Origin: Opitutaceae bacterium
GTDB taxonomy: Bacteria; Verrucomicrobiota; Verrucomicrobiia; Opitutales; Opitutaceae
Assembly (NCBI GenBank): GCA_028284235.1
Contig: JANQSC010000054.1
Span: 186,001 to 250,000, forward strand
Direction: 5' to 3'
DNA: 64,000 nt
Shown here: in pieces, positions 13,038-30,570 of the stretch
Layout: each line of letters opens with the position of its first letter
How positions within the stretch are numbered: the stretch's first letter is position 1
Made by a program: the position numbers and the translations under genes
Notes under the pieces: generated by a model
The model's database searches: none
Told to the model about the DNA's origin: nothing
What the model saw: the letters and a program-made list of their open reading frames with translations, nothing else

Positions 13038-15106
13038 TAATTTTTGAGCTCAGCGAGGACGTCCTCCGTCGACTGCTTGACCTGTTTCAAGTTCATCTTG
13101 GTATCGCCGCGGTACCAGTGCTTCCAGCGAGGATTGGCGGTTATCATAGCTTGGCCTTGCTCGAGAGTTTTCCATTCATTGAGGGACTGCTCTACGTGGC
13201 GAATCGCTGCGTTCCGATCGCCGTCCGCGAGCGCGGCAACCGCGCGTTCGAGCTCTAGGGCCCAGGCGTGCAATCCCCGAAGAATGCGCGATTGGGCGAT
13301 GAGGTTTTCCTTGAAAAAGCGGGCTCGCGACGCGTCGCAATGCGCTTCGATTTCCTGGAGCGCTTCTTGCATCAGCTTATAGGATACATCGAGGTGGCCG
13401 ATTTGGGTTTCGAGCATTCCCACGGCGTCGCCAGGCCCCGGCAGAGGCGGGCGCATATCGGCGAGATGACGATTCACCCAACTGTTCTTGGCGCTGTTTT
13501 CTTCCTCTGGCAGCCGACCGTTTTCCAGAATCGCGCGAATCGCGCCCATATTCCGGTACCCTCGTTGCCGCGTCAATCCATCGATAAAGTAGGGGACGCC
13601 TCGTTCGTTTTCGAGATAGCTTTCGAAGAAGGACTCGTAGGCTTTGACGGCGGCGTCGGCGGCGTCGCCGAACCAGAACGCGCATAGGTCGCGGGTGAAC
13701 TGATAGGCGTCGAAGGCTTCCGTGTCGGTCAAAGAAGCCGCGGAGGCGGAGAGGCCGAAGACAAACTCGCGAATGCTGGACGCATTGAGAATGGCGTAGT
13801 CGCGAGCGTCGCGGTGATAGGCCTGGTTGAAGAGGTAGCCTTGTTCGTTGGCAGAAACGCCTTGAACCATGTGAGGACCGGTGCCCCAGAGCTGGTGATG
13901 GAAGTAGACGCCGTAGTTGCGCCTCGGATCGCGCGGCATTTCGTGGAAGTCGCTTTGCCAGACGCGCCCGGGCGAGTTGTCGGCGAAAATGATCATGACG
14001 TCTTCCGGAATCCGCATGAATCCTTCCTTGAAGAAGACGGCGCCCTCCGCCCAAAGGGTTGTGGTCATGACGGGGTTGGAGTCTTTGGAAACCTCGTCGA
14101 CAATGCGTCGTTGGAGCGCGATGGCTTCGGTCATGATGGCGCCCCGTTCCTCGTCGGTTTCGGGCGTATTGGGATCGGCCATCCACATAGGGCGGTCGGC
14201 GATGCCGCGCAGGCCGAGCTGCCAGACGACGTTCGGATATTCGGCCCAGAGCTGGGCGTAGTAGCGCCAGGTCTCCTCCATTTGTTTCTTCGAACTGAAA
14301 TAGGAAAAGAGGTGCTCCTCGCCTCGCCGCTTCCAGTAGTTGAAGAAGGTGAACGCGCTGACGCCTAGAGGCTCGATGTGGTGCATCGATAGATACAGGC
14401 CACGTTTCTTGGCTTCGTCGGCGAGGGCCCGTTCCGGGGCGTTGTCGATATCGAGGAAGCTGGCTGGGATGATGAGGTTGTAACCGAGTCGGACAGCCGT
14501 TTCGCATACTGCTGCCATGGCCTTCGGGTCGACTGCGTATTTGTAGTGCGGATAATCGATGTAGCGTCGGCCGCCGCTTTCAATCCAGCCTTGAAGCAGG
14601 TCTTCGTCGTTGATGAACCAGCCGCGAAAGCGGAAAGAGGGCTCGGAGCCGGAGAGTCGTGTTTGGGACCAGTCGAGGTCGGCGCGCTTAATCGGTTCGA
14701 TGCCGGTCCAAAGATAGGTGGGGTCGATACCCAGAATTTCCTTGCTGAAGGTGTAGATGGCCCGCATGGCCCCGCGGGGGTCGCTGCCGACGAATACCAA
14801 TGAGTTCTGGTGGGAAAGTATTTCGAATGCTTCGTCTTTGCCTTCGAGGGACTGGATTGCGCTTGCAGAAATTTTTTGAACCCAATTGTTGAATACGGAA
14901 TCTTCGAGAGAACCGATGATGATTTCCCCGCCTGGATCGCCCCGCGTAACCGGGATGGACTGGCTAGTTGTTTTCTGTATGTCGGAGGACAGATCCTGAG
15001 CGGCAAGCGCCAGCCATTCGGGACTGTTGGAACCGACGCGGATTTCAGCCAGCAGGGTGGAGGCGGTGACGGCAAGTAGGGTGAAGATGGTGGCTGGGAC
15101 TTTCAT
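13037..15106 (-). CDS. GH115-like exported glycosidase (alpha-glucuronidase-type)
   Basis: Protein of 689 residues with a signal peptide (MKVPATIFTLLAVTASTLLA). An N-terminal domain (EIRVGSNSPEWLALAAQDLSS ... EIIIGS) resembles the domain found before GH115 catalytic barrels. The barrel begins near FRFRGWFINDEDLLQGW, the RGxFxNDED signature typical of GH115, and continues with TTTLWAEGAVFF and IIFADNSPG. Known GH115 enzymes release glucuronate or 4-O-methylglucuronate side chains from xylan-type polymers. That fits the downstream glucuronate catabolic genes. It is shorter than typical members, so the subfamily and exact linkage are uncertain. It sits upstream of, and overlaps, the GH28 gene at 11574. 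Confidence 0.75.
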   Translation of the reverse strand: MKVPATIFTLLAVTASTLLAEIRVGSNSPEWLALAAQDLSSDIQKTTSQSIPVTRGDPGGEIIIGSLEDSVFNNWVQKISASAIQSLEGKDEAFEILSHQNSLVFVGSDPRGAMRAIYTFSKEILGIDPTYLWTGIEPIKRADLDWSQTRLSGSEPSFRFRGWFINDEDLLQGWIESGGRRYIDYPHYKYAVDPKAMAAVCETAVRLGYNLIIPASFLDIDNAPERALADEAKKRGLYLSMHHIEPLGVSAFTFFNYWKRRGEEHLFSYFSSKKQMEETWRYYAQLWAEYPNVVWQLGLRGIADRPMWMADPNTPETDEERGAIMTEAIALQRRIVDEVSKDSNPVMTTTLWAEGAVFFKEGFMRIPEDVMIIFADNSPGRVWQSDFHEMPRDPRRNYGVYFHHQLWGTGPHMVQGVSANEQGYLFNQAYHRDARDYAILNASSIREFVFGLSASAASLTDTEAFDAYQFTRDLCAFWFGDAADAAVKAYESFFESYLENERGVPYFIDGLTRQRGYRNMGAIRAILENGRLPEEENSAKNSWVNRHLADMRPPLPGPGDAVGMLETQIGHLDVSYKLMQEALQEIEAHCDASRARFFKENLIAQSRILRGLHAWALELERAVAALADGDRNAAIRHVEQSLNEWKTLEQGQAMITANPRWKHWYRGDTKMNLKQVKQSTEDVLAELKN

Positions 15107-15224
15107 GAGCGCGTTTTGGGAAGCAATTGGCGAGGCTGTTTGCCTGCTGTAGGTTCGAAGGAGGGTCGAGTTTAGAGGACGCGGGAATTGGGTGTTGATA
15201 TTGCAGGTTGCGAACCGGCGGGCG

Positions 15225-16334
15225 CTAGTCTTCCGAAATCCGGTAGTACCAAACCTCCATTGTTTCGTTGTCCGACGGGCGGTTCCAGTAGAGGCGCCGG
15301 CCGTTGTGGCTGAACGCCGGGTTGAGGTGGGTCTTCATGCCCCACACGATATCCGTGCCGTAGGAATCGATTGCGCGGCTGGTCTTCCGGGATAGGTCGT
15401 ATTCGATGAGTGTGACGGGATCCGCGCCGTAGGGCGGATCTGTAACGATCCAGCGTCGATTCGGGGAAATCGTGGGGTGGTTGCCCGGCCCGGCTAGTGT
15501 TTCGATGACGTTTCTGTCTCGGTCCCAACGCCGAATAGACCAGTCGTTGGGATGGCCATCATCGATTAGGTTGTCCGCTCCAACGAGGGTGTCGCCGTCC
15601 CACCAGTTCACGTGCATCGGCTTGATTCCGAAGTACCGCAAATCGTTTCCGTCTGGGCGACAGGTAAACAGGTACCACGGTTGGTCGCCGGTGTCGAGTT
15701 GGACGGCGATGTTTTCGGTTTCGGGGGCGATGTGAATGTGGCGGAAGACCCATTCCTGCGGATCATCGCTTCCCGGGAGCGCGTCCGCCCAGTAGGCCAG
15801 GTCGGCCGTTTGGAGGATGTCCCTAGTGTTCCCTTCGAAATCGCTACGCCGAATGGGGAAGCCTTCGCCACCCCGAAGGAGGAAGTAGGTCTCGGTGTTG
15901 TCGTGTTTCGACTGGCCTTCGATCCGGGTCAAGAGATTGCCATCCAAGTCGACAATGTAGGTATAGCCGTCTGTGTAATAGAGGATGCGATCGTTGGCGA
16001 TAAAGCGTTGGGACGCGCCATCGTGGGCCTGTGTCAAAAGGTCGGCGACTTTCCGATGACCGGTTCCATCGCTTCGGCATAGCCACAACTCGGCATCGGT
16101 GACTCCCCTGTCCCGGGGAGGCGTGGGGAAATTCACGTAGACGACATGTTGTCCGTCCGGGCTATCCGGCGGAGTGTCCCACGAACCGAGAACCGCCCAC
16201 TGGCCGGGCAGGGAGATCCGTGTGCCGTTGGTGGGAGCGGACTCTCCGGTGGCAGAGGCTTCGGGTCTGCCGCAGGCCGCGAGGGCCAGGCAAAGTAGGC
16301 AGATTGGAATTGGACTAGGAACGTCGACTCGCAT
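15225..16334 (-). CDS. Beta-propeller lipoprotein, possibly PL22 oligogalacturonate-lyase-like
   Basis: Protein of 369 residues with a lipoprotein signal (ICLLCLALAACG, lipobox LAAC). The rest reads as TolB/WD40-like propeller blades: SPDGQHVVYVNFPTP, ELWLCRSDGTGHRKV, GNHPTISPNRRWIVTDPP and THLNPAFSHNGRRLYWN. The last segment resembles the C-terminal blade of family PL22 lyases (THPHPSFTPDNKQVLF in the enterobacterial enzyme, from memory). An oligo-uronide lyase role would suit its place between two GH28 genes. A non-catalytic glycan-binding propeller is the alternative. The likely location is lipid-anchored in the periplasm or outer membrane. Confidence 0.6.
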   Translation of the reverse strand: MRVDVPSPIPICLLCLALAACGRPEASATGESAPTNGTRISLPGQWAVLGSWDTPPDSPDGQHVVYVNFPTPPRDRGVTDAELWLCRSDGTGHRKVADLLTQAHDGASQRFIANDRILYYTDGYTYIVDLDGNLLTRIEGQSKHDNTETYFLLRGGEGFPIRRSDFEGNTRDILQTADLAYWADALPGSDDPQEWVFRHIHIAPETENIAVQLDTGDQPWYLFTCRPDGNDLRYFGIKPMHVNWWDGDTLVGADNLIDDGHPNDWSIRRWDRDRNVIETLAGPGNHPTISPNRRWIVTDPPYGADPVTLIEYDLSRKTSRAIDSYGTDIVWGMKTHLNPAFSHNGRRLYWNRPSDNETMEVWYYRISED

Positions 16335-16361
16335 CGGGTAGTTTGGGTGGTTAGCGCGTGG

Positions 16362-17972
16362 TTATGGTTTGAGGGCGACTTGGTTCTCCGGGACTTCGTC
16401 GTCGATCTTGACGAGCTGGTCTGTTTCGGGGAAATGGTTGTCGAAGAGAACGATGTCGCGTGTTTTCCGTCCCTCGATGTGAAACGCGGTCGGAATGGGA
16501 ATGTGGATTATATTGTTGAAAAAGGAGGCCTTGCTTGTGTCGATCAATCGGACCAGGGCGTCGGCTTTCTTTGAAGCGGAAGCGCGCAGCCCTGACAGCT
16601 TCAGCCCTGCGACGTTGTCTATCACCAATGCGGGCCGATCGTCATTTCTGGCGGTCCGGAGATGTATGTTTTCCAGAGTGATCGCGCTGGCGTGTCTGAT
16701 AAAGAAACCGTAGGCTGGGAGTTCGCCGAAAATGAGGCCGTTTGGATACGCTGTTTCTTCTTCCGGCAATTTACGGTTCGCCTGCTCCCGAGTCCCGCCT
16801 CCTTCAAATTCCAAATCGATATTCCTTAGGAGTATGTTTTTAACAGGAATGTCCTTAGTGCCGGACACGATACAACCGTAGCCCGAGGAAATACGGGTGC
16901 CTGTGATGTTCTCGATGATTATGTCCTTGAGATGCGGCGTATTGATACTGGCGCCTTCACGGTAGGCGCGGAACCGGCTGCCCAGGCGAATGAAAATGGC
17001 TGACGTCTTTATGTTGCGAATACTTATGTTTGAAATTTGGATACGCTCCATGCGGGCGCCGTCTACAGTCATAATGCTCACCGCGTCTCTTCGGGTGTCG
17101 TAGACTACGCAGTTGTTGACGACGATGTCCTCGAAGCGTCCGCTGGATTCGGTCCCTATCTTGATTCCCGAGGCGTTGGAGCTGACGACGCAATTGGTGA
17201 TGGTGATATCGCGGCAGGCTTCGTCGGGGGCTAGGCTCTTCAGGCAGATGGCGTCGTCGCCGCTGTTGATGACGCAATTGGATACCCGCACTCGTTCGCA
17301 ATCGACCAGATCGAGGCCGTCCGTATTGCGGCCCGGGACATCCGCGTAGCGTTCTTTTTCGATGTCCTTGTTTTCCCGGCTGTCGACCGTGACGCTCTCG
17401 ATGACGAGGTCCTTGCAGGACTGGTAGGACTGCACCCAGGACGCGGAGTTGTAGAGTGTGATGTCTCGGATGAGTATGTTCTCGCAGCCCCTGAAGTGAA
17501 TAATCCGCGGCCGCTTGCTAAACGATGGAAAGCCGTAGGGCCCCTCTACCCAATGGTCGCCATTTCCGTCGATAGCGCCCTGGCCCGTGATGGCGATGTT
17601 CCGCGCATCTTCGGCGTAGAGGAGCATCTTGTTGGTCACCATTTCCTTCTGGTAGGCGGAGTGCGTGGAGGGAGTGCTGGGGAAGTCGTAAAGGTTGTCG
17701 CTGGCCCGGAGAATCGCGCCGGCCTCGATTTCCAAGGTGACATTGTCCTTTAGGTGGAGAGTGCCCGATCGAAAGACACCTCCTCGGATGTAGACCTTGC
17801 CACCACCATCCTCATTGCAGGAATCGATTGCGTTTTGAATGGCAACCGTATTCAGCGTTTCATTATCTCCGACAGCTCCGTATTGCTTTACATCCCAGAC
17901 GTGCGAGGAAGCGGTCAATGATTGTATGGCGACGCCAACAGTCAGGGCGGAAATAAGCAAGGGACGTTTCAT
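16362..17972 (-). CDS. Exported GH28 family protein lacking the usual GHG histidine motif
   Basis: Beta-helix protein of 536 residues with a signal peptide (MKRPLLISALTVGVAIQSLTA). The N-terminal segment DVKQYGAVGDNETLNTVAIQ is typical of pectate-lyase-superfamily GH28. Active-site motifs NTDGLDL and SGDDAICLKS are intact. Where polygalacturonases carry the catalytic GHG histidine, this protein reads SNASGIKIGTES. Such sequences occur in GH28 members acting on other uronate or rhamnose linkages. A true polygalacturonase is therefore less likely than an exo-acting or rhamnogalacturonan-type enzyme. It lies 27 bp upstream of the propeller lipoprotein and 30 bp downstream of the clan-A glycosidase. 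Confidence 0.88.
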   Translation of the reverse strand: MKRPLLISALTVGVAIQSLTASSHVWDVKQYGAVGDNETLNTVAIQNAIDSCNEDGGGKVYIRGGVFRSGTLHLKDNVTLEIEAGAILRASDNLYDFPSTPSTHSAYQKEMVTNKMLLYAEDARNIAITGQGAIDGNGDHWVEGPYGFPSFSKRPRIIHFRGCENILIRDITLYNSASWVQSYQSCKDLVIESVTVDSRENKDIEKERYADVPGRNTDGLDLVDCERVRVSNCVINSGDDAICLKSLAPDEACRDITITNCVVSSNASGIKIGTESSGRFEDIVVNNCVVYDTRRDAVSIMTVDGARMERIQISNISIRNIKTSAIFIRLGSRFRAYREGASINTPHLKDIIIENITGTRISSGYGCIVSGTKDIPVKNILLRNIDLEFEGGGTREQANRKLPEEETAYPNGLIFGELPAYGFFIRHASAITLENIHLRTARNDDRPALVIDNVAGLKLSGLRASASKKADALVRLIDTSKASFFNNIIHIPIPTAFHIEGRKTRDIVLFDNHFPETDQLVKIDDEVPENQVALKP

Positions 17973-18002
17973 CAGACTAGGATCTGCTTGGAGGCTCGTT
18001 TA

Positions 18003-19502
18003 TCACGGTATCAAATCGACGAGTGAGTGGTCGGTGATGATGATTGGCGCGTCCCAGATGGGTATGTCTCGTAGATCGGCCGCGGCTCCGTAGTAGGTGA
18101 TCTTCTCTGGCGGGATCGTGTAGACCGCTCCGGAAAGGGCATCGATATAGACGGGATTTACGATGCGGAATTCGGGGATGGTCAGGCGTATATTCTGGCG
18201 CTTGGTAGACTCGCCTGGCTTGCTTGAGTTGTCCCAAATTGCGAAGGCTTGTCTGCCGTTTACCGCATGACCGAACGAGAATGCGGACAGGGTTGCGCGG
18301 GGTGACTCGATACCGTCGACTTTGCCCTTTGGAGAGACGCCGTCATTGAAGAAACTGCAGAGGTTTTGGTAGGAGTAGTAGGTCAATTTAGGTCGTTCAA
18401 TCGACAGGTCTGGATTGGCTTTGAGTAGGCCTTTGGTGTTGAGCGTATTGTAGTCTCGCACCTTCTGCTTGTAGTACATGTCGGAGATCTGGAATTGGCT
18501 ATAGGGGATGCCTCTGCCGATATGGGCGAGGGCGCGGCGGGTGTTCCACTTAGCTTGGCTCAGCTCGGTCCAGTCGAGATTTCTCAGGGCGAATTGAGGT
18601 TGGTTCTCGGAAGGCGCTCCCGTTTCGCCCTGCCAGAGGACGATGCCCGGATTGTACTTGTCCATGGTCGCGCGCAAGCGGGCTACGTGCTCGAAGTCGT
18701 TGTCCGGATTTTGTGGATACCCGTGGTAGGAAAACCCGTCTAGCAGTTGCACTTTGCCATGATTCGCAAGGTACTCCATGAAGATGTTTACCGTCTCGGG
18801 GCGTCCAACTCCCGCCAACGCGTAGCCGACAATGAAGCCGTCGGGGTCTTCCCGGCGAATGGTCTCAGCGGTTCGTACAAACAAGCGGGCGTAAGCCAGG
18901 TCCATTTCCTCGGTCACCTCGCCTTTTCCACGGTGATTGATGTCGGCTTCGTTCCAGACCTCCCAATAGGTGACTCGGTCGGCGAAGTGTTTCACGGCCT
19001 TCTCCACGTAGCGGTCCCAAGCCGCCAGGCCCTCCTCGGATTGGGGCAATCCTTCGCCGAGACCGGTGCCGCCGGCATCGGGGTAAATGAGGTTTCCGTA
19101 GGAAAGTTCGAGCCAGGGATCGAGTCCCCGTTCGATGGTTCCGTCTATGATGGCGTCTAACCAGGCAAAGTCGTAGACGCCTCGCTTTTGTTCGGTCTTA
19201 GCCCATCCGCTCTGCAGACGGAGGCGCTTGGCGCCGAGCGGTTCTAGATAGTCCTTGTAGGCGTGGAAATCGGCGAAGTCGCGACCCAGCGTCTCGCCGC
19301 CCACGCCGAGAAGTGAGTAGTTGATTTCGGTGGCTTTCTTGGGCTTGAGCATGCCCAAGTATTTCCAGTCTTGGGGAATGCCGGATTTAATTTTAGCGAT
19401 GGCGGATTCAGCCTCTGGAGTATGGGGAACTGCGCGGCGCGAATCCGCGAACGCGAGAGAGCTGGCGAGGAGAATTGAAGTTAAAGCGATTTTGATTTTC
19501 AT
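18003..19502 (-). CDS. Exported clan GH-A glycosidase, GH39-like
   Basis: Protein of 499 residues with a signal peptide (MKIKIALTSILLASSLAFA). A TIM-barrel is evident: LRLQSGWAKTEQKRGVYDF (strand 2/loop), WEVWNEADI with the presumed acid/base Glu after Asn, DGFSYHGYP, and IVLWQGETGAP with the presumed nucleophile Glu. The NE pair and the later strand-7 Glu are the retaining clan GH-A signature. GH39 (xylosidase/iduronidase type) is the nearest family I recognise, but another GH-A family is possible. A C-terminal beta-sandwich appears to follow (residues about 400-499). It is part of the tight minus-strand operon, 25 bp after the RraA-like gene. Confidence 0.78.
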   Translation of the reverse strand: MKIKIALTSILLASSLAFADSRRAVPHTPEAESAIAKIKSGIPQDWKYLGMLKPKKATEINYSLLGVGGETLGRDFADFHAYKDYLEPLGAKRLRLQSGWAKTEQKRGVYDFAWLDAIIDGTIERGLDPWLELSYGNLIYPDAGGTGLGEGLPQSEEGLAAWDRYVEKAVKHFADRVTYWEVWNEADINHRGKGEVTEEMDLAYARLFVRTAETIRREDPDGFIVGYALAGVGRPETVNIFMEYLANHGKVQLLDGFSYHGYPQNPDNDFEHVARLRATMDKYNPGIVLWQGETGAPSENQPQFALRNLDWTELSQAKWNTRRALAHIGRGIPYSQFQISDMYYKQKVRDYNTLNTKGLLKANPDLSIERPKLTYYSYQNLCSFFNDGVSPKGKVDGIESPRATLSAFSFGHAVNGRQAFAIWDNSSKPGESTKRQNIRLTIPEFRIVNPVYIDALSGAVYTIPPEKITYYGAAADLRDIPIWDAPIIITDHSLVDLIP

Positions 19503-19527: not shown

Positions 19528-20271
19528 TTAGAAGTAGCCGCCTTTGTCGGTGATTTCCTTGGCCCCTTGGCCTTCCGCGACCCAGCCGAAGATTTTCTTT
19601 TCGTTTTCGCGGATTTCCTCAGCTCGCTTGAGGACCTTGAAAGCGATGTCTCGGGGAACGCAAATGACGCCGTCGATATCGCCCATCAGCACATCGCCTG
19701 GCTTTATATCCACGGATCCGATACGAATGGGTATTTGGAAGTGAGTAATCAGACAACGTCCCAGCGAGCCATTGGGACTGCGGTACTTGTAGTAGACGGG
19801 GAAATCTTTCTCCAGGATTTGACGCGTGTCGCGAATGCAGCCGTCGATGCAGGAAGCCTTTACTTTTTTAGAGACCGCAGTGGCGGTCATGACGCCGCCC
19901 CACATGGTCGCTTCCTCATCTCGGCTCGTGTCGTAGACAATGAAGGCGTCCTCGTGCATGGCTTCGAGCATTTTGGTTCGAAAGTCCATCTCGCCTCGAA
20001 CGAGGGAGCTTGGCGCGCTTTTGACAGTGAAGGCGATGCCGGCCACGGTGACATCGTCGCGGAGGGGGCGCAGATAGGGGGGGAGCGATTGGTTGAGCAA
20101 ACAGAACTCGCGCAGGACATCGCTAATTGCGCCTGTGTAGAGCTGCTCGAAGCGTTGGAGCAGTTCCTTCTCGGGAATAGGAAATTCCAGAGTGGAAATA
20201 CTCTCTCGATTTTCGATCAGCTTTTCGAGATTCATCATCCCGACTTCTTTTTTATATTGGTCTGTAGACAT
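19528..20271 (-). CDS. RraA-family aldolase/decarboxylase-like protein
   Basis: Cytoplasmic protein of 247 residues in the RraA/HMG-aldolase family, whose members split or decarboxylate 2-oxo-acids. Family features are DVLREF near the start, KASCIDGCIRDTRQI (the Asp-x-x-x-x-Arg-Asp segment binding metal and substrate) and GDIDGVICVP. The chosen ATG at 20271 gives MSTDQYKKEVGMMNLEKL; ATG 20238 or 20235 is an alternative. The open frame runs on to 20658, but that extension overlaps uxuA and is arginine/proline-rich shadow sequence. The position directly behind uxuA suggests it acts on 2-keto-3-deoxygluconate or a downstream keto acid (inference). Confidence 0.8.
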   Translation of the reverse strand: MSTDQYKKEVGMMNLEKLIENRESISTLEFPIPEKELLQRFEQLYTGAISDVLREFCLLNQSLPPYLRPLRDDVTVAGIAFTVKSAPSSLVRGEMDFRTKMLEAMHEDAFIVYDTSRDEEATMWGGVMTATAVSKKVKASCIDGCIRDTRQILEKDFPVYYKYRSPNGSLGRCLITHFQIPIRIGSVDIKPGDVLMGDIDGVICVPRDIAFKVLKRAEEIRENEKKIFGWVAEGQGAKEITDKGGYF

Positions 20272-20339: not shown

Positions 20340-21308
20340 TTACGTGTTTTCTATCGTATCCAAAATTCCTTTCAAGTAGCCGACCGCGAAGAGGCGGCCT
20401 TGGGCTCCGTAGCCGGGATCGTCGTTGCGCTCCCCAGCCATTGTAGGTACGTGGTCGACGCGTATGGGGCCGCTGAAGCCGATGTCGCGGTAGTGGCGGA
20501 GCAGGGTGGGCATGTCGGTCGGGCCGTTGTCGTGGAACGTTTCGCGGAAGCGCGTAGGGCTGCCGCGGACGTCGCGAAAGTGGATGAAAAAGAGTCGGTC
20601 TTGGCTCGCGAACTCGTTGGCGAGAGCTCGGACATCGGCTCCCATTGTAGTGTAGCATCCCTGACAGAAGGTCACGCCGTGCTCGGGGCAGTTGGAGAGG
20701 GAGAGCGCTCGACGGACGCCATCCGGCGTCGAGAAAATACGACCGATCCCTCGAAGAGGGCTGACTGGAGGGTCGTCGGGATGCAGTCCCATTTTTACGC
20801 CCGCGGATTCCGCCGCGGGCAACACTGCTTTTAGAAAATACTCATAGTGCTCCCACATGGCTTCCTCGGAGATTTCGCCCGCTTCAGTGAGCGGTGTCCC
20901 TTCTAGGTCCTTCGAGTCGAAGCCGCTAACCAGGGCGCCGCCGCGTTCGGGGATTCCCGTTTGCGTACGGAACCACCCGATTTCAGCCATGAAGTTGTAG
21001 CAGATCAATGGGATGCCCAGCTCTCCCATGTTGCGGAGCATTTCGCAGTAGCGCTCCAAGTCTTCGTCGCGGCCGGGCTTGCCTTGTTTGATGCGTTCCA
21101 TGTCCATCGGGTCGCCTTCGAGGCCATAGAGTTCGAGACCGCGTTCGGCGAAGCGTCGCTTGGCTTCGGCCAGAGTGTCGATATCCGAGGGAGGGGCTCG
21201 TCCCGTTGTTTTTGGATGCAGCTTCACAATCGCATGGCGTATCCCCATCTGCTGGGCGAGGTCCCAGCGGATGTCCGGATCGAAGGGCAGGAAGTCTACG
21301 ATAAACAT
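20340..21308 (-). CDS. uxuA: Mannonate dehydratase
   Basis: Converts D-mannonate to 2-keto-3-deoxygluconate, the step after fructuronate reduction. The 322-residue protein carries the UxuA landmarks: CYNFMAEIGWFRT, MGLHPDDPP followed by RGIGRIFSTPDG, TFCQGCYTTMG, FFIHFRDVRG and FHDNGPTDM, then RVDHVPTM and PGYGAQGRL. His/Cys/Asp residues in these match the metal site of the xylose-isomerase-like barrel. It is shorter than the roughly 394-residue E. coli enzyme because an internal insertion is missing. It is the first gene of the long minus-strand operon, and a palindromic operator candidate lies 141 bp upstream. Confidence 0.92.
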   Translation of the reverse strand: MFIVDFLPFDPDIRWDLAQQMGIRHAIVKLHPKTTGRAPPSDIDTLAEAKRRFAERGLELYGLEGDPMDMERIKQGKPGRDEDLERYCEMLRNMGELGIPLICYNFMAEIGWFRTQTGIPERGGALVSGFDSKDLEGTPLTEAGEISEEAMWEHYEYFLKAVLPAAESAGVKMGLHPDDPPVSPLRGIGRIFSTPDGVRRALSLSNCPEHGVTFCQGCYTTMGADVRALANEFASQDRLFFIHFRDVRGSPTRFRETFHDNGPTDMPTLLRHYRDIGFSGPIRVDHVPTMAGERNDDPGYGAQGRLFAVGYLKGILDTIENT

Positions 21309-21448: not shown

Positions 21449-21465
21449 TGCTTTATCGTTAAGCC
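21449..21465. promoter_or_regulatory. Operator candidate O1, between uxuA and the LacI-family gene
   Basis: TGCTTTATCGTTAAGCC is an imperfect palindrome matching the reverse complement of O2 (21551-21567) at 14 of 17 positions. It lies in the divergent promoter region, 141 bp upstream of uxuA. Its centre is 102 bp from the centre of O2. Confidence 0.6.
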
Positions 21466-21550
21466 AAAAGATGGGTAGCCCGTTCGCGGATGGTCTGTTC
21501 TTGGGATTCACCTGGGATCGAGTTCGATTCCGCCACGGAGATTCGTAGCT

Positions 21551-21567
21551 TGCTTAACATTAAAGCA
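21551..21567. promoter_or_regulatory. Operator candidate O2, just upstream of the LacI-family gene
   Basis: TGCTTAACATTAAAGCA is a palindrome with TGCTT/AAGCA arms. It ends 18 bp before the GTG chosen as the regulator start, a position suited to autorepression. It matches O1 and O3. Confidence 0.65.
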
Positions 21568-21585
21568 TGGGGTAGTGCTGCAGTT

Positions 21586-22737
21586 GTGAAATCGGGTGAG
21601 CGGGGACGATCTAGAGGGAATTCCAATCGGCGGGTAACGCTGAAGGACGTGGCCAAACGGGCAGGCGTCACCACCGCGGCGGTCTCCATGGCGCTCAAGA
21701 ACAATCCCCGAATTGGCGAGGCCACTCGAAAGCGCATCGCGAAGATCGCGGAAGAGCTCGGGTATCGCGTCGATCCGAATGTCGCCTCTCTAATGCGCTA
21801 TCTTCGATCGAATCGACGACCGGAGTTTGCAGAGACCATTGGATTTGTGTACGCCTATGGTGACGCGGAGGAGTTCAAGCAGGCAATTGCGTTGGAGGGA
21901 CTATTCCGAGGAGCGGTCGATTTCGCGGATAGGCAAGGTTATAAGATTGAACCGTTTTGGTTGAGGGAAGAAGGAATGACGCAAGCAAGGATGAACAGCG
22001 TACTCGTCTCTCGAAATATTCGCGGTTTGATTCTTCCACCCCTTCCCGAGAACCATGCGAAGCTGAAATTCGACTGGAACAGGCTGGCGGTAATCTCGCA
22101 CGCGTTGTCTTTGGACGAACCGGAGATCGACAACATCACTAGCCATCAATACTACTCAGTGAGATTGGCGTTTGAGAAGTGTCGAGAACTTGGGTACAGG
22201 AGAATTGGTTTGGCTCTCAATCGAGTCCATTCCGATCGAACAGAACATCGTTGGCTCGCGGGATATCTCAGTTCTTCGCGCCTTTTGCCAGCGGAAGAGC
22301 AGGTGCCTGAGTATTTGGGCCCGCCGAATCGAGAGTTCTTGAATTGGTATCGGGACAACCAACCGGACGCGATCATCGTCGCCAAGATGCATTTCAGAGA
22401 GGCGTTGGACGAGTCGGGAATTCAAGTGCCGGAGGATGTGGCTATGGCCTTCTTGAATTTGGCGCGACATACTGACGACGATTCTCGATCCTCGTATGCC
22501 GTGCCACTGGAATTTTTGGATACGGGGTATCACGACGCTTACACGGCTCCCGGTGAAATGGCTGGCGTAGTCCATAACTTCTACGAGATGGGGCAAATGT
22601 CGGCGAGCCAGATAATCGCGGCCTTGCAACAGAACGTATTCGGGGTGCCCAAGTTCGCCAAGAACACTCAGGTGAAAGGCTCCTGGGTGGATGGGCGATG
22701 CGTTCCTAAAAGAAAATCGCGGAAAACCAAGGCGTAG
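21586..22737 (+). CDS. LacI-family transcriptional regulator of the uronate genes
   Basis: DNA-binding repressor/activator of about 383 residues. The helix-turn-helix is RVTLKDVAKRAGVTTAAVSM, near residues 16-35 from the chosen start. The hinge is unusual (DPNVASLMRYL instead of the common PNxxARxL), a variant shared with the other LacI protein in this window. A sugar-binding periplasmic-type domain follows (ETIGFVYAYGDAEEF ... RRIGLALN). The frame is open back to 21490, but GTG 21586 is preferred because the earlier region is not LacI-like and contains operator O2. It sits between uxuA and a TonB receptor/uxaC operon, so a uronate-derived inducer is likely. Confidence 0.85.
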   Translation: MKSGERGRSRGNSNRRVTLKDVAKRAGVTTAAVSMALKNNPRIGEATRKRIAKIAEELGYRVDPNVASLMRYLRSNRRPEFAETIGFVYAYGDAEEFKQAIALEGLFRGAVDFADRQGYKIEPFWLREEGMTQARMNSVLVSRNIRGLILPPLPENHAKLKFDWNRLAVISHALSLDEPEIDNITSHQYYSVRLAFEKCRELGYRRIGLALNRVHSDRTEHRWLAGYLSSSRLLPAEEQVPEYLGPPNREFLNWYRDNQPDAIIVAKMHFREALDESGIQVPEDVAMAFLNLARHTDDDSRSSYAVPLEFLDTGYHDAYTAPGEMAGVVHNFYEMGQMSASQIIAALQQNVFGVPKFAKNTQVKGSWVDGRCVPKRKSRKTKA

Positions 22738-22796
22738 GTTCCAGGCGGGGGAAAGGGGGCGACGCATAGGGCCGAGTGGTTTTGGCCCGCGCGTTT

Positions 22797-22813
22797 TGCT
22801 TAACTAATAAGCA
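22797..22813. promoter_or_regulatory. Operator candidate O3, upstream of the TonB receptor/uxaC operon
   Basis: TGCTTAACTAATAAGCA has 6-bp perfect arms TGCTTA/TAAGCA and shares TGCTTAAC and AAGCA with O2. It is 199 bp upstream of the receptor start in the 274-bp gap after the regulator gene. Confidence 0.65.
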
Positions 22814-23011: not shown

Positions 23012-26000
23012 ATGAACATCAATCGATCTATTCGTAAAGCCGCCGTTTTCTCGCCGGCTTTGCTGCTACTTGGCGCATCCGCTTTTGGCCAAGATAGCGA
23101 CGACGGAGAAGAAATTTTCGAGCTTTCTCCTTTCACTGTCGAAGCGTCCGACGCCACTGGCTACCGAGCGACTTCAACACTCGCAGGTACGCGTATTCGT
23201 TCGGAGCTGGAGGATATAGCGACGTCAATTTCGGTCGTTACTCAGGAGCTTTTGGACGATACGAACTCGACCAATGCCGAGGACATTCTCGTTTACACGA
23301 CAGGAACGGAAGTCGCTGGTATCGGTGGCAATTTCACTTCCTTCGATATTTCCGGCAGCTCGGGCCAAATAAACGATCAAGCCACCCGCAACTCGGCTTT
23401 GTCGGACACGCGCATTCGCGGTTTGGCGGGGGCGGATCGGGCGCGTGACTATTTTCGGTCCGACATTCCGTTCGACAGCTACAATACCGAGCGCATCGAG
23501 ATCAATCGGGGTTCCAACGCAGTTTTGTTTGGGCTAGGCAGTCCCGCGGGAATCATCAACAACGCTCTCAAGCAAGCGCAATTCCAGGACCGTAGCGAAG
23601 TGGGGATTTCCTTTGGCAGCTACGGTTCCTATCGGGGCACGATCGACCTCAATCGCGTGTTGATCGAAGACGAGTTCGCCGTGCGAATTTCTTCGGTTTA
23701 CGACCATGAGAACTTCCAGCAGGACCCTGCGGAGCAGATCGACCAACGCATTTATGCGACGGCGAAGTATTCGAAGGACCTCTTCGATGCGAGCGACTCC
23801 AGTATTGGGAAAACCACTATTCGCGCCAGCTATGAAGGGGGAATCAACAATGCGAACAAGCCCCGTACAGTGCCGGTCACCGACTTGATCACGCCCTGGT
23901 TCGAGCCTTGGGATGTAGACGTTTTGGGGACGTTGAACCTGCCTGTCAAAATTACTTGGGATGGCGCTGCCCAGGGGACGAATGTCTGGCCGCGAGGACC
24001 GGTCGAGGATCCCAATAATCCTTACGTCGACAACGCTCGTCTCAGCCACCACGTTATTGACGGCTATTTCCGTGGACCTTCCATAATTTATGAAGGACCG
24101 AACAATGCGTCTCCAAGCGATCCGTTCGGCAATGGCGTCATCGGTCGGCAAGGGGTTTCCAACCGCGTCGTCCCCAACGGCAGTGGCGGGTTTTCCACAG
24201 GCGTGTTTATGGGTCCCACGAATTTGAATACAGCGCTGCGCGACATCCGCCCAGCTTTGCCCTATGCGGCCTTCTACTCGTCGCCCACGCTTTCAGACCG
24301 TTCCATCTTCGATTTTCAGGAACAGTTGATCGACGGCCCGAACAAATACGAGGACTACGACTTCGACGCGTACAATCTCTTCCTCGAGCAAATGCTCTTC
24401 AACAACAAGGCTGGCTTCGAGATCGGTTTCGCGAAGGAAACGATGAACCAGGACTACGCGGGACTGTTGCAGTCCGGCTCGCGCACCGGACTTTCGATCG
24501 ACATCAACACGGTTCTAATGGACGGTACACCCAACCCCAACTTCGGCAGACCGCTTGTTAGCGGCTCCGGCTACTGGGGCGGTTCGGAAGCGGAGCGCGA
24601 AGCGATGCGGGCGACGTTCTTCGCCGACTTCGACTTCACGGAAAGCGACAACGGGATTGTTCGCTGGTTCGGAAAGCATACGTTTACGACGCTGTACAGC
24701 GATTCCAGCGAAGAGATTTTCTCCTTTAGCGGAGTTCCGCTCACTTCGGGTCGCGACAATATTTGGGGTCGTAGCCAGGGCATTGCGGACAGTCATGGCC
24801 GCCGCGTGAGCACCGTTCACTATCTCGGCGACTCGCTGGCGAGCGCTTCGACAGCGGCGGGCGCCAACATCAGTCGGATCGTCGAAGTTCAAATGCCCAA
24901 TGCGGCGCTCGCGTCGAGCGGTCAGTTCCGATTGGCGGGCAACGGCCAAAACAACGAACTGGCTCCTCAAGGGACGTTCACGACTACGGGGCTGACCTTT
25001 ATAGACAACCCGATCAATGGAGCGAGCCGTACCCGGCGGGACGTGGAGTCCTTGGCGGCTGTTTTGCAAAGCCGGTTTCTCAACGACAACTTGGTTGCCA
25101 CGGTCTCGTGGCGCGAGGATGACTTGGACTCTCGAGCGCGCGGCGCTCCCGAGCGCGACATCGACGGGGTGATCATTCCCGACTTCCCGTTGACCGACGA
25201 CGATCCGCTACTCAACAAAGACTCGACGGTCAATTACGGCGTCGTATTGAAGACCCCTCGGGGCTGGCTTGAAAATATGGAGGCCGTGTCCGGATTCAAT
25301 CTCCACTACACGGAGTCCGAGAACTTCCAGCCTGCGCGTATCCGATTCAATCCGGATGGTAGCGTCATTGGATCGCCTACTGGAGAAACCACTGATTACG
25401 GGTTCACCCTCGGTTTTTTCGATGACGCGTTTATCGTGCGTACGACTTGGTACGAAACGAGTCAGGTTAATGTGGGAGCCTCCGGCGTTCCCAGCTTGAA
25501 TCGCTTAGCCGGGATTCACGGCGATGTTCTCACGTTCACCGCTCAGGGAGACAATCCGAACCTGGACCCATCCGACCCAGGACCCGAGTTCGATTTCGAT
25601 GAAGATGGAAACATCGATTTGGACTACCAGTCGCCGCCCCAAGAGTTTCTGGATCGCGTCGGTTTCACATGGGACCCAGTCAATGGCTCGCAGCTAACCG
25701 GTGGCATCCCCGCCAGCGCTGTGCAAGACCTGGTAACTGAGGGAGTTGAAATCGAGCTCGTGTACAATCCAACGGAAAATTGGAACATCATGTTCAATGC
25801 GTTCCAGCAGGAGGCGATTTCTAACAACGCAGCGGCGACCTTCCGGGAATTCCTCGACGTGCCCGTCTATGACTTGGATGGAAACGGATCATTGGAGTCC
25901 ACTTGGGAAGACGCTTACCTCGGCACTTACAAGGACATCGTCGCGGGGACCAGTTTGAATACCGTCGAACTGAGCGCCCAGAATTTCTTCAATTCCTTGA

Positions 26001-26419
26001 AGCGGGTGGAAGCGCTCGATGGACAGCTGAATCCCGAGCTGCGTGAATGGCGTTTCAACTTCATCACCAACTACCGGTTTACCGAAGGCAGGCTGGCCGG
26101 TTGGAATGTCGGTGGCGCGATGCGCTGGGAAGACGAGGCGGCGATCGGCTATGCGCTCGCGGAGATCTCTCCCGGAGATTTCAACATAGATGTTTCGCGG
26201 CCGTTCTTCGGTGGTACGGAAACCAACATCGATGCATGGGTTGGATACAAGACCAAGATTCTAGACGACCGGGTCGACTGGGGTATTCAATTGAATATTC
26301 GCAATCTGCTCGACGAAGACGACTTGATTCCAATTCGCGCGAATCCGGACGGCTCCCATGTCGGGTGGCGCATTCCCACGCCGATGGAGTGGTCGATCCG
26401 CAACACGTTCAGTTTCTAG
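23012..26419 (+). CDS. TonB-dependent receptor of the uronate locus
   Basis: Outer-membrane importer of 1135 residues without an STN domain. The signal peptide covers about residues 1-26 (AAVFSPALLLLGASAFGQ). The FELSPFTVEASDATGYRAT motif, the plug domain (IRGLAGADRARDYF; IEINRGSNAVLFGLGSPAG) and a large barrel ending NTFSF follow. It resembles the receptor at 5468 throughout but not in the N-terminal signalling part, so it is probably controlled by the LacI-type regulator rather than by the ECF sigma. It leads an apparent plus-strand series including uxaC, although a strong hairpin after it may attenuate read-through. The probable ligand is a uronate oligosaccharide produced by the neighbouring hydrolases (inference). 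Confidence 0.92.
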   Translation: MNINRSIRKAAVFSPALLLLGASAFGQDSDDGEEIFELSPFTVEASDATGYRATSTLAGTRIRSELEDIATSISVVTQELLDDTNSTNAEDILVYTTGTEVAGIGGNFTSFDISGSSGQINDQATRNSALSDTRIRGLAGADRARDYFRSDIPFDSYNTERIEINRGSNAVLFGLGSPAGIINNALKQAQFQDRSEVGISFGSYGSYRGTIDLNRVLIEDEFAVRISSVYDHENFQQDPAEQIDQRIYATAKYSKDLFDASDSSIGKTTIRASYEGGINNANKPRTVPVTDLITPWFEPWDVDVLGTLNLPVKITWDGAAQGTNVWPRGPVEDPNNPYVDNARLSHHVIDGYFRGPSIIYEGPNNASPSDPFGNGVIGRQGVSNRVVPNGSGGFSTGVFMGPTNLNTALRDIRPALPYAAFYSSPTLSDRSIFDFQEQLIDGPNKYEDYDFDAYNLFLEQMLFNNKAGFEIGFAKETMNQDYAGLLQSGSRTGLSIDINTVLMDGTPNPNFGRPLVSGSGYWGGSEAEREAMRATFFADFDFTESDNGIVRWFGKHTFTTLYSDSSEEIFSFSGVPLTSGRDNIWGRSQGIADSHGRRVSTVHYLGDSLASASTAAGANISRIVEVQMPNAALASSGQFRLAGNGQNNELAPQGTFTTTGLTFIDNPINGASRTRRDVESLAAVLQSRFLNDNLVATVSWREDDLDSRARGAPERDIDGVIIPDFPLTDDDPLLNKDSTVNYGVVLKTPRGWLENMEAVSGFNLHYTESENFQPARIRFNPDGSVIGSPTGETTDYGFTLGFFDDAFIVRTTWYETSQVNVGASGVPSLNRLAGIHGDVLTFTAQGDNPNLDPSDPGPEFDFDEDGNIDLDYQSPPQEFLDRVGFTWDPVNGSQLTGGIPASAVQDLVTEGVEIELVYNPTENWNIMFNAFQQEAISNNAAATFREFLDVPVYDLDGNGSLESTWEDAYLGTYKDIVAGTSLNTVELSAQNFFNSLKRVEALDGQLNPELREWRFNFITNYRFTEGRLAGWNVGGAMRWEDEAAIGYALAEISPGDFNIDVSRPFFGGTETNIDAWVGYKTKILDDRVDWGIQLNIRNLLDEDDLIPIRANPDGSHVGWRIPTPMEWSIRNTFSF

Positions 26420-26560: not shown

Positions 26561-27991
26561 ATGAACGAATTCATCAATAGCCGGTTTCTCCTTCGGTCGC
26601 CAAAGGCGATCGAACTCTACGATCGCTTTGCGAGCGCACTGCCCATCGTGGATTGCCATTGCCACCTCGAGCCCGAACAAGTGGCGAGCAACTGGGTCGC
26701 GGAAAACATAGTCGAGCTTTGGATCGCCAATGACCCCTACAAGTGGCGGGCTATGCGCATTAACGGAATCGAGGAGCGGTTCATCACGGGCGACGCGCCC
26801 GCGCGGGAAAAATTCCGCGCCTTCGCGGAGACGATGCCGCGACTCGTAGGCAGTCCGGTCTTCCATTGGTCGGCCTTGGAGCTCAAGCGCTACTTCGGTA
26901 TCGACACGCTGCTAAATGGCGATACAGCCGACTCGATTTGGAGCGAGTGCAACGCTCGGATCCAGTCAGGCGAGTGTGGAGCCGCGGACTTGCTGAGGCG
27001 GACGAATGTGGAAACGGTTTGCACCTCGGACAATTGGATGACCGATTTGCAGCCACATTGTTCGACCCAGGACAATTCTGGTTCTTTCGTCATGCTGCCC
27101 TCGCTTCGAGCGGACGCGGCCCTTCGGGTGGAGGATTCGGGTTACGCCTCCTGGATCCAGCGGCTCGGCAGCCAGGCCAATCGCAGTATCGATAGTTTGG
27201 AGGCGCTGGAAGCGGGGCTTGCTAGTATTCTTGATGCATTCGATGGAGCAAATTGTTCCCTGTCGGACCACAGTTTCGAATCGGTGCGTTGGGTATCGAC
27301 AAGCGAAGCGAACGCTGGGCGAGCGTTCGAAAAAGCGCTGAATGGAGAGCCTTTGGGGTCTGACGAAGCGGACGGGCTGCGCTGCCGCATCCTCGCGTTC
27401 CTGGCGGGGGAGTATGCGAGGCGTGATTGGACTATGCAACTGCACTTGGGCGCTCTTCGGGAAACGAGTCGCGCTCTAATGGGGCGCGTTTCGATTCCGG
27501 GAGGAGTGGCTGCGGTTGGCGATTCGATTTCCAGCGCCGCGCTGTCGACGCTATTCGACAATCTCGAACGCTCGGGTGGATTGCCGAGAACGATCGTCTA
27601 CCCTTTGAACATAGGCGACTTCGAGAAAGTCGCCTCCCTGAGCGGCGCCTTTGTGGAAGAGGGTGTTTGGGGAAAGGTGCAGTTGGGGCCGCCATGGTGG
27701 TTCAACGATCACTACGACGGTATTGCGCATCAATTGAAAGTGTTTTCCAACTACAGCGCTCTGGGGCGTTTTGTTGGCATGGTGACCGATACGCGTAGTC
27801 CCTTGTCCATGGCTCGATTCGAGTACTTCAGAAGGGTTTTCTGCGATTTGCTTGGGGACTGGATAGATCGGGGCGTCGTTCCGAATGACGACGCGCTCCT
27901 AGAGCAGCTCGTTGAGGATGTGTGTTATCGCAACGCTGCGAGTATCGTAAACAACAAAGCTAAACGCTCTGGCAAGAGCAAGGTGGCCTAG
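26561..27991 (+). CDS. uxaC: Glucuronate isomerase
   Basis: Isomerises D-glucuronate to D-fructuronate (and galacturonate to tagaturonate in the family). The 476-residue product has the amidohydrolase-type metal motif HxH in PIVDCHCHLEP near residue 30. It also has WRAMRINGIEERFITG, HWSALELKRYFGI, RDWTMQLHLGALRE, QLGPPWWFNDH and SPLSMARFEYFRRVFCDLLG, all characteristic of UxaC. ATG 26561 gives the canonical MNEFINSRFLLRS start; the frame extends upstream to 26465 through the terminator hairpin and is not used. It is the first catabolic step after uptake and leads into the SDR gene 27 bp downstream. Confidence 0.95.
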   Translation: MNEFINSRFLLRSPKAIELYDRFASALPIVDCHCHLEPEQVASNWVAENIVELWIANDPYKWRAMRINGIEERFITGDAPAREKFRAFAETMPRLVGSPVFHWSALELKRYFGIDTLLNGDTADSIWSECNARIQSGECGAADLLRRTNVETVCTSDNWMTDLQPHCSTQDNSGSFVMLPSLRADAALRVEDSGYASWIQRLGSQANRSIDSLEALEAGLASILDAFDGANCSLSDHSFESVRWVSTSEANAGRAFEKALNGEPLGSDEADGLRCRILAFLAGEYARRDWTMQLHLGALRETSRALMGRVSIPGGVAAVGDSISSAALSTLFDNLERSGGLPRTIVYPLNIGDFEKVASLSGAFVEEGVWGKVQLGPPWWFNDHYDGIAHQLKVFSNYSALGRFVGMVTDTRSPLSMARFEYFRRVFCDLLGDWIDRGVVPNDDALLEQLVEDVCYRNAASIVNNKAKRSGKSKVA

Positions 27992-28018: not shown

Positions 28019-28861
28019 TTGAATACAAGAAAGCACGAAGGTAAGGTTGCGATCGTAACCGGCGCTGGTGGGACGCTCTGCCGGGAGATCGCCAAGAGTT
28101 TGGCCGGGCAAGGAGCTTGTGTGGTCCTGGTGGGACGTACCGTTTCCAAGCTGGATTCGGTTAAGGCGGCTATCGAGGACGAAGGGGGCGAGGCATTCGC
28201 GATCGGCGCGGATGTGACCCAACTGGATGACTTGAACCGAGCCAGGGCGAAGGTAGAGGAAGTGGTGGGAACCTGCGACATCCTCATCAATGGGGCGGGA
28301 GGCAATCAGGCGGCGGCCGTCACTAAAACGGTTGAATTCGATCCCGCCGAGTTGGACGATCCAACGGTAGGCGGCTTTTTCAACTTGGACGTGGACGCTT
28401 TTCGCAGCGTGGTGGACACGAACATTGCAGGTACCATGCTGCCGAGTCGCGTTTTCGGCGCGGGCATGGCGAGGAAGGGAAGCGGCAACATCGTTAACTT
28501 TCCCTCGATGACAAGCTACCGTCCGCTCTCCAAAGTCGGAGCCTACGCCTGCGCCAAGGCGGCGGTTGTCAATTTCACGCAATGGCTAGCGGCTTACCTG
28601 GCGCCGGCTGGGGTGCGGGTTAATGCCGTGGCGCCTGGTTTCTTCGTGAACGACCGGAGTCGCAAACTGCTGCTCGACGAGCAGGGCAATCCAAGTCCGC
28701 GCGGCGCCCAGGTCTTGCATCACACACCCATGAATCGATTCGGCGAGGCCAAGGAGCTGCTCGGCTGTGTAAACTGGCTGATCGACGACGAAGCGGCTAG
28801 TTTCGTAACAGGTGTGACGATCCCGGTAGACGGCGGATTTCTCTCGAGCCCAGGAGTGTGA
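28019..28861 (+). CDS. SDR-family oxidoreductase, probable fructuronate reductase
   Basis: Short-chain dehydrogenase of 280 residues. The cofactor motif is KVAIVTGAGGTLCREIAKSL near residues 9-28. NGAGGN follows, the catalytic Ser lies in NFPSMTSYRPL, the YxxxK pair is YACAKAAVVNF, and the C-terminal segment is TGVTIPVDGGF. It lies 27 bp after uxaC and uxuA is close by. The missing step between them is reduction of fructuronate to mannonate, so a UxuB-equivalent SDR (as in the Bacillus YjmF type) is the best assignment. The start is TTG at 28019, which places the glycine motif at the normal distance from the N-terminus. No classical long-chain UxuB is in the window. Confidence 0.82.
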   Translation: MNTRKHEGKVAIVTGAGGTLCREIAKSLAGQGACVVLVGRTVSKLDSVKAAIEDEGGEAFAIGADVTQLDDLNRARAKVEEVVGTCDILINGAGGNQAAAVTKTVEFDPAELDDPTVGGFFNLDVDAFRSVVDTNIAGTMLPSRVFGAGMARKGSGNIVNFPSMTSYRPLSKVGAYACAKAAVVNFTQWLAAYLAPAGVRVNAVAPGFFVNDRSRKLLLDEQGNPSPRGAQVLHHTPMNRFGEAKELLGCVNWLIDDEAASFVTGVTIPVDGGFLSSPGV

Positions 28862-28896: not shown

Positions 28897-30570
28897 ATGA
28901 ACCTCGTCTCCCTAGACTACGCTTTGATCGTCGCCTACCTCGTTCTGATGGCGTGTATCGGCGTATTCTTCGGTTGGTTTATCAAGGACTTGGGTTCGTA
29001 TTTGAAAGGCGGAAATACGATTCCATGGGCGATTGCCGGCATCAGTAATTTCATGTCGATGTTCAGCACCTTCATTTTCGTAGCGTATGCGGGAATCGCT
29101 TACGAGCACGGGCTGATATCGATCGTCGTATTCTGGAGCACGGTCCCCGCCTGCTTGATTGCCGGGAAGTGCTTCGCGTCGCGTTGGCGTCGAGCCCAGA
29201 TTACGACGCCTATCGAGTATTTGGAAAAGCGCTACAGCGCGGGCGTTCGGCAGATGTATTCCTGGTTGGGGTTGCTGAAGCGTTTTCTGGACAATGCGGT
29301 CCGACTGTACGCATCGGGTCTGTTTCTGGCGACGGTTACGCCGATTAGCATCGCGGAGGCGATTGTCGTGTCGGGCGCTCTCATTACGGTTTTCACGATG
29401 ATCGGCGGGCTGTGGGCGGTGACTGTAATGGACACCATTCAGTTCATCGTGCTGATGTGCGCGACTCTCATTCTGCTACCCCTTTCGCTCAATGCGGTGG
29501 ACGGGATTTCGGGGATCGCTGCCGGAGAACCGGAATTGCTGCACTGGTTTAACGGGCCGAAGGGGGCGCCTCTTTGGCTCTTGGTCTACTTCGCCATGAT
29601 CGCTCTGAAATACAACGAAAATTGGGCCTTCGTGCAGCGCATGTATTCGGTGCGGGACGAGAAAGCTGCCAAGAAAGTGGCATATTGTTGCGCGGGGCTA
29701 TTTCTGGTTGCCCCAGTGGTGTTCCTAGTTCCGGCGATAGCGGCCAAGGTTTATCTGCCGGGTTTGGAAGATCCGGAGCAGGCCTTCGTTGCCATGTGCA
29801 GCGCTTTGTTGCCGGCGGGTATGATGGGTTTGATGGTGGCCAGTATGTTCTCGGCGACAATGTCGGCCTTGAATTCCGAATTCAACGTAATGGCCGGCGT
29901 GCTTACGAATGACGTCTACAAGCGCTTCGTTCGCAAAGATAGCAGCGAGCGAGCTCAATTTGTATTCGCCCGTGTCGCGACGATCGTGGTGGGCGCGCTA
30001 ATCACGACGGGCGCGGTTTTCGTGGGCCACTTTGGCGGCGCCTTTGAAGCTAACAAGTTGTTTACTGGCATTCTCGCCATTCCCTTGGCTGTGCCCATGT
30101 TGGCGGGACTGTTGCTTTGGCGACAGAATGCGGCGTCTGCATTTGCGGTCGTGATCGGTGGGGCCTCGCTTTCGCTGGTCTTGAATATAGGAGCATGGTT
30201 TGCTTGGGAGGTGTCGACTCTATTCACGATCGCGGCCTGTTTCGGGATCTATCTCGCGATGGGGCGCGGGGGGAACGAAGGCAACGAAGTAGTGAAGGCC
30301 TTTTTTAAGAGAATCGAAACGCCATTGAAGGCAGATGCGATCCCGGTAATTGACGCCGGATTCAAGAGAGCGTTATTCAAGCTCTTCGCATTTTCCCTCT
30401 TCGTCTCGGGTGGATTCTTCGTTCTTGTCAGTGTCTTTACGATACGCGAACCGAGCGGACAGCTAGCTCTTGCAAGTGGCCTCCTGTGTGCCGGAATCGG
30501 ATTCGTGTTCGCAAAGTTCTCTCGCAAAAATGAAATTGCTGCCGAACAATTGACCGGAAGCGAACAATAG
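28897..30570 (+). CDS. Sodium:solute symporter (SSS family)
   Basis: Inner-membrane cotransporter of 557 residues with about 13-14 hydrophobic helices. The family pattern is seen in LKGGNTIPWAIAGISNFMSMFSTF (helix 1-2 region), WAFVQRMYSVRDEKAAKK and GLMVASMFSATMSALNSEFN (sodium-site helix 8). It follows the SDR gene by 35 bp and precedes the secreted propeller gene by 51 bp. The probable substrate is glucuronate or a small uronide that has crossed the outer membrane through the receptor at 23012 (inference from position). Confidence 0.9.
   Translation: MNLVSLDYALIVAYLVLMACIGVFFGWFIKDLGSYLKGGNTIPWAIAGISNFMSMFSTFIFVAYAGIAYEHGLISIVVFWSTVPACLIAGKCFASRWRRAQITTPIEYLEKRYSAGVRQMYSWLGLLKRFLDNAVRLYASGLFLATVTPISIAEAIVVSGALITVFTMIGGLWAVTVMDTIQFIVLMCATLILLPLSLNAVDGISGIAAGEPELLHWFNGPKGAPLWLLVYFAMIALKYNENWAFVQRMYSVRDEKAAKKVAYCCAGLFLVAPVVFLVPAIAAKVYLPGLEDPEQAFVAMCSALLPAGMMGLMVASMFSATMSALNSEFNVMAGVLTNDVYKRFVRKDSSERAQFVFARVATIVVGALITTGAVFVGHFGGAFEANKLFTGILAIPLAVPMLAGLLLWRQNAASAFAVVIGGASLSLVLNIGAWFAWEVSTLFTIAACFGIYLAMGRGGNEGNEVVKAFFKRIETPLKADAIPVIDAGFKRALFKLFAFSLFVSGGFFVLVSVFTIREPSGQLALASGLLCAGIGFVFAKFSRKNEIAAEQLTGSEQ

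Follow-up and report, generated by a model that had tools for sequence, protein, structure and literature searches.

Which protein reads the three related palindromes that lie among the uronate genes of an Opitutaceae bacterium, and by what rule are they recognised? The window analysed here, a 64,000-nt stretch of one contig of this genome, encodes a LacI-family regulator placed between uxuA and a second set of genes that includes uxaC. Uronate regulators described elsewhere are UxuR and ExuR, which belong to the GntR family (PMC9369180), and, in Thermotoga, UxaR (GntR) and KdgR (IclR) (PMC3750489). These proteins have uxuA, uxuB, uxaC and uronate uptake as their targets, as the window's regulator would, but they belong to other protein families and use other operators, and the likeness is one of role only.

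For LacI-family transcription factors, a survey by Ravcheev et al. (2014; PMC4052901) found that 96% of motifs are even palindromes, mostly with a central CG, and that odd motifs of 17, 19 or 21 nt make up 4%; autoregulation was found in 72% of the factors, and about 20% of operons carry more than one site. Camas et al. (2010; PMC2978694) described specificity as being set by LacI residues 17, 18 and 22, read from autoregulatory sites. Their code is limited to TVSR helices (Arg22), with a canonical backbone of (T)G-A-CG-T-C(A).

The uronate locus and its regulator

The regulator has an N-terminal LacI helix-turn-helix (HTH) domain (PF00356, 55.7 bits against a cut-off of 27) and a C-terminal sensor domain resembling periplasmic binding proteins (PF13377, Peripla_BP_3, 35.5 bits against a cut-off of 26.5). 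It was matched by these two profiles only, and hence by no GntR winged helix. The GTG at 21586, proposed in the original prediction, was judged the best start (Table 1). Arg is absent from LacI position 22, which is occupied by Met within the recognition helix TTAAVSM.

The genes flanking the regulator form a coherent cluster for uronate-containing polysaccharides, and the three sites, here named O1–O3, do flank uronate genes as had been claimed, surrounding those for UxuA, UxaC and a short-chain dehydrogenase (SDR) of the mannonate oxidoreductase type. UxuA is predicted to be active as a mannonate dehydratase; at 322 aa it is short, passing the PRK03906 subfamily cut-off and missing the TIGR00695 equivalog cut-off. 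The RraA-like gene is probably co-transcribed with uxuA. Among relatives, an RraA-like gene lies beside or near uxuA in 15 of the 15 neighbourhoods whose UxuA is more than 50% identical (L090–L104), which suggests that it has an uncharacterised role in uronate breakdown.

Table 1. Features of the uronate locus, in window coordinates; functions are predicted and the operators are putative.
Feature	Position	Strand	Context	Basis
GH39-like, GH28, PD40-repeat protein and GH115 genes	13037–19502	−	follow uxuA-rraA; putatively one operon controlled from O1	
RraA-like aldolase-fold gene	19528–20271	−		RraA-like match; next to uxuA in relatives as well
uxuA, mannonate dehydratase (PRK03906 type)	20340–21308	−		profile matches
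O1, putative operator TGCTTTATCGTTAAGCC	21449–21465		uxuA-lacI divergent region; uxuA start 140 bp downstream	sequence, de novo triple search, genome scan
O2, putative operator TGCTTAACATTAAAGCA	21551–21567		ends 18 bp 5' of regulator GTG; autoregulatory position	sequence, TGCTTAA-pair placement in Ala18/Met22 LacI genes
LacI-family regulator, GTG start	21586–22737	+	recognition helix TTAAVSM (Thr17, Ala18, Met22)	Pfam LacI, Peripla_BP_3
O3, putative operator TGCTTAACTAATAAGCA	22797–22813		regulator stop 59 bp back; TonB receptor ATG 198 bp ahead	sequence, hairpin, L122/L123 sites
TonB-dependent receptor, putative O3 target	23012–26419	+		Plug domain
uxaC, uronate isomerase	26561–27991	+		NCBIfam PRK02925 above cut-off
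Short-chain dehydrogenase, D-mannonate oxidoreductase subfamily	28019–28861	+		PRK08277
Sodium:solute symporter	28897–30570	+		profile match

Three palindromes confined to one locus

All three related palindromes were found where the original prediction had placed them. Each is 17 nt long and intergenic, with the shared consensus TGCTTWA-N3-(T/A)WAAGCA, and their six arms depart from the half-site TGCTTAA at 4 of 42 positions. The single central bases are C, A and T, so that none of the three is an even palindrome with a central CG.

Palindromes picked by eye are prone to bias, which would speak for O1–O3 being chance repeats, and an unbiased search was meant to remove it. Any 7-bp half-site with a spacer of 0–8 was allowed, and triples of sites were sought in the uxuA-lacI and lacI-TonB receptor intergenic regions (277 and 274 bp). 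The best triple was O1–O3, with TGCTTAA as the consensus half-site and a spacer of 3. In 20,000 dinucleotide shuffles a triple with 4 mismatches never arose, the closest having 5, once, and of 4,000 pairs of real control segments taken from elsewhere in the window none was as good. Together with the independent correlation between helix and half-site described below, these results leave chance a negligible place; at the level of sequence, such an origin is already refuted.

Within its own genome, the motif is confined to the uronate locus. Exact matches to TGCTTWANNNNWAAGCA in the 6.13-Mb genome are O2 and O3 only; one mismatch adds O1 and two other places, both within long ORFs, and the top three intergenic matches are O1, O2 and O3. 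The next-best match in the window (AGCTTAACAATTCAGCC, at 41308) scored 14.5, against 21.8–24.3 for O1–O3, and was dropped as lying within a coding ORF; the genome matches in long ORFs, at C12:21047 and C36:17656, were likewise dropped. Near O1–O3, no promoter was recognised.

The locus resembles those of the local sugar regulators of the LacI/GalR family (PMC4052901) in the LacI HTH and sugar-binding domain, in its palindromic putative operators, in apparent autoregulation, with putative O2 lying upstream of the regulator's own gene, and in what would be local control of a sugar pathway. It differs from them in that their operators are mostly even and CG-centred, whereas those proposed here are 17 nt long without a CG centre. 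By both of its predicted domains the regulator is a LacI-family protein, and the two canonical operator features, an even CG-centred site and Arg22, are both missing.

Recognition helix and half-site

The palindromes had been claimed as sites of the LacI-type regulator whose gene lies between them, and this is supported by a correlation between recognition helix and half-site, from which we infer binding. A collection of 122 LacI genes was drawn from loci picked by HTH similarity, not by the motif, and from other LacI loci in hand; the scored set comprised 120 genes besides the window's own, mostly from the same bacterial family. Each was scored for inverted TGCTTAA with a spacer of 3 or 4 and at most 3 mismatches in 14, within 330 nt upstream. 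With this half-site and these cut-offs, which were chosen after the window sites were known, a site was found upstream of 11 of the 30 genes encoding both Ala18 and Met22, and upstream of none encoding Met22 only (0/11), Ala18 only (0/12) or neither (0/67), that is, 0 of 90 together. For Met22 against the rest, Fisher's test gave p = 2.7e-6, and permuted half-sites were found at no more than 5 genes, against 11 for the real TGCTTAA. The sampled genomes are unevenly related; clustering at 80% HTH identity, which reduces the effect of kinship and does not remove it, gave 6 of 14 clusters with Ala18 and Met22, compared with 0 of 63 others (p = 1.3e-5).

The spacer varies between groups, and the correlation rests mainly on the group with a 4-bp spacer. 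In the AGVTQATVSM group, several members carry 18-bp versions (such as TGCTTACATCCTTAAGCA, TGCTTAAATCCTTAAGCG and TGCTTATCTGGTTAAGCA) at the ATG or a few bases off, a placement that reads as autoregulatory, as with O2, while the IAA-VSM group, from the same genus, has TACTTAAACGTTTAAATA. Among close matches, the window's gene is the only one with a 3-bp spacer in its own promoter. Similar sites also accompany two LacI proteins outside the Ala18/Met22 class, one near L122 (Met18, Met22) and one near L166 (Pro18, Gln22), and the code is therefore not clean. It is reasonably probable that, in this bacterial family, LacI regulators with Ala18 and Met22 make up a separate specificity class. Its half-site would be TGCTTAA, a CG centre would not be obligatory, and the two arms would be spaced by either 3 bp (17 nt, as in the window) or 4 bp (18 nt, in the QAT-VSM and IAA-VSM groups). 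The published code concerns TVSR helices and Arg22 (PMC2978694), whereas here TGCTTAA goes with VSM helices (Met22) that also have Ala18.

Other LacI loci of the family also have pairs of palindromes, different from these in sequence but likewise odd in length and lacking a central CG: at L177:2668 and 2734 (GTCACTTAATAAGTGAC/GTCACTTATTAAGTGAC), at L195:833 and 898 (GTAGTCTATTAGACTAC/GTAGTCTAATAGACTAC), and at L166:6029 and 7285 (TGCCTATCAGATAAGCA/CGCCTATCTGATAAGCA). Odd operators may be common in this bacterial family.

Conservation in related genomes

Conservation of the sites upstream of orthologous operons, a further expectation of the original prediction, was not borne out, the outcome being either negative or empty. 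No orthologue of the regulator was present in 372 genomes of the order or 387 of the phylum (about 750 related genomes). The homologues found are paralogues, with identities of 39% or less, and in the examined loci none has uxu genes next to it; a phylogenetic footprint of this particular operon is consequently lacking. A site within two mismatches occurred in 0 of 20 neighbourhoods of uxuA relatives or of the closest LacI. These outcomes arise because those loci use a different regulator. The regulator-operator pair is lineage-specific; conservation lies in the half-site, across LacI proteins that share this recognition helix.

The closest uxuA (74% identity of the product) lies in G365, at L090, where the order rraA-uxuA, regulator, uxaC-SDR-symporter is that of the window; the G365 cluster differs in having an IclR gene in the LacI position, no match to the TonB receptor, and no TGCTTWA site. 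Another palindrome, TGAATAACAAATATTCA, lies there upstream of the IclR-type gene (L090:10115–10900), a swap of regulator and operator at the same spot. No UxuA match at E ≤ 1e-60 was present in the same-genus genomes G002, G006 and G010, so that the cluster looks to have been either acquired by the window's genome or lost from the sampled relatives.

A scan of the 372 genomes with TGCTTWANNNTWAAGCA gave matches in 13 genomes, no more than a reversed control, and most of these were coding. Three intergenic matches (L116–L118), near LacI genes, led to the loci L122–L124. In G002 (L122, same genus), a 17-bp site with a 3-bp spacer lies between a TonB receptor gene and an oxidoreductase-LacI pair, about 300 bp before the receptor. 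In G339 (L123), which like G002 is of the same family, one such site lies 202 bp before a TonB receptor gene and a second, AGCTTAAGCGTTAAGCA, before an adjacent gene for an enzyme, and a LacI gene follows downstream. In G202 (L124) there are two sites with 3-bp spacers, 106 bp apart. Having been found by the motif itself, these sites are suggestive only. Enrichment of the position weight matrix (PWM) in LacI loci over permuted motifs was weak, because helix class was ignored and only spacer 3 was allowed.

Roles of the individual sites

O3, 59 bp past the regulator stop codon, is part of a hairpin of 12 pairs that has a U-rich tail, and the 71-nt stretch that contains it folds 3.5 sd better than shuffles. 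On these features it could be an intrinsic terminator of the regulator gene and nothing else, the operators then being O1 and O2 of the divergent region. Such a restriction seems unlikely, as TGCTTAAC and AAGCA are identical in O2 and O3, the stem is poor in G-C, and shuffles yield terminator-like sites equally often. In addition, the equivalent sites of L122 and L123 stand before a TonB receptor gene in divergent regions that need no terminator, and for this reason an operator role is favoured for O3. It may terminate the regulator transcript in addition to serving as an operator, or in place of that role.

The centres of O1 and O2 are indeed 102 bp apart, but the original description of this distance as near an integral number of helical turns fits only a 10.2-bp repeat; at 10.5 bp per turn it amounts to 9.7. 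Two sites so spaced within one intergenic region, like the L124 pair at 106 bp, could hold a repression loop, as had been suggested. With a non-integral spacing, and with no tetramerisation element seen (by eye, a leucine heptad is not visible in the C-terminus after the core, KRKSRKTKA), looping appears improbable, and two divergent promoters account for two sites without it.

A candidate repressor of uronate genes

Taken as a whole, the evidence is best explained if O1–O3 serve as operators for the LacI-family protein of 21586–22737, a reading to which we assign a probability of about 0.82. The assignment is well supported by sequence comparison.

A reader from elsewhere in the same genome, whether a GntR or IclR protein or a LacI paralogue, would have precedent in the uronate regulons that are under GntR or IclR proteins in other organisms (PMC9369180, PMC3750489), in the IclR gene at the closest syntenic locus (G365), and in a LacI paralogue, G000:C59, with a partly similar upstream site, TGCTTTATCGTAAAATA. 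It is very unlikely to be the answer here, given that every good site adjoins this LacI gene, one of them directly before its start, and that the half-site tracks the recognition residues of this LacI protein. The G000:C59 paralogue (L217:1165) has the helix SRMTVSM, which is also the helix of the L122 regulator; with TGCTTTATCGTAAAATA upstream of its gene, there may be cross-talk between this paralogue and the window's regulator.

If the LacI protein of the window is the reader, each TGCTTAA arm would be contacted by a single monomer through its recognition helix, with Ala18 and Met22 as the residues that track the half-site. A dimer on O2 would block the regulator's own promoter or start. 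On O1 it would keep uxuA-rraA and the glycosidase genes linked to them repressed, and on O3 the TonB receptor-uxaC-oxidoreductase-symporter genes, with operon limits that are putative on both sides. The protein would thereby act in repression rather than activation, and its release would most likely be brought about by a uronate or a pathway intermediate.

Wider significance

These polysaccharide degraders encode many LacI proteins, with 24 matches in the window's genome and 37 in one relative, yet a described LacI operator for this lineage was not found in the open-licence literature, which is weak evidence of novelty; literature on TGCTTAA with LacI gave unrelated matches only. The wider rule that joins half-site to helix is a more interesting result than the assignment of the sites themselves. 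Relatives that share the DNA-reading residues also share the half-site, which suggests that this large regulator family has a reading rule not described so far. A link between one half-site and two recognition residues would allow regulons to be read directly from genomes. If true, the TGCTTAA class would extend the LacI recognition code past the Arg22 (TVSR) group, to helices that the published code omitted.
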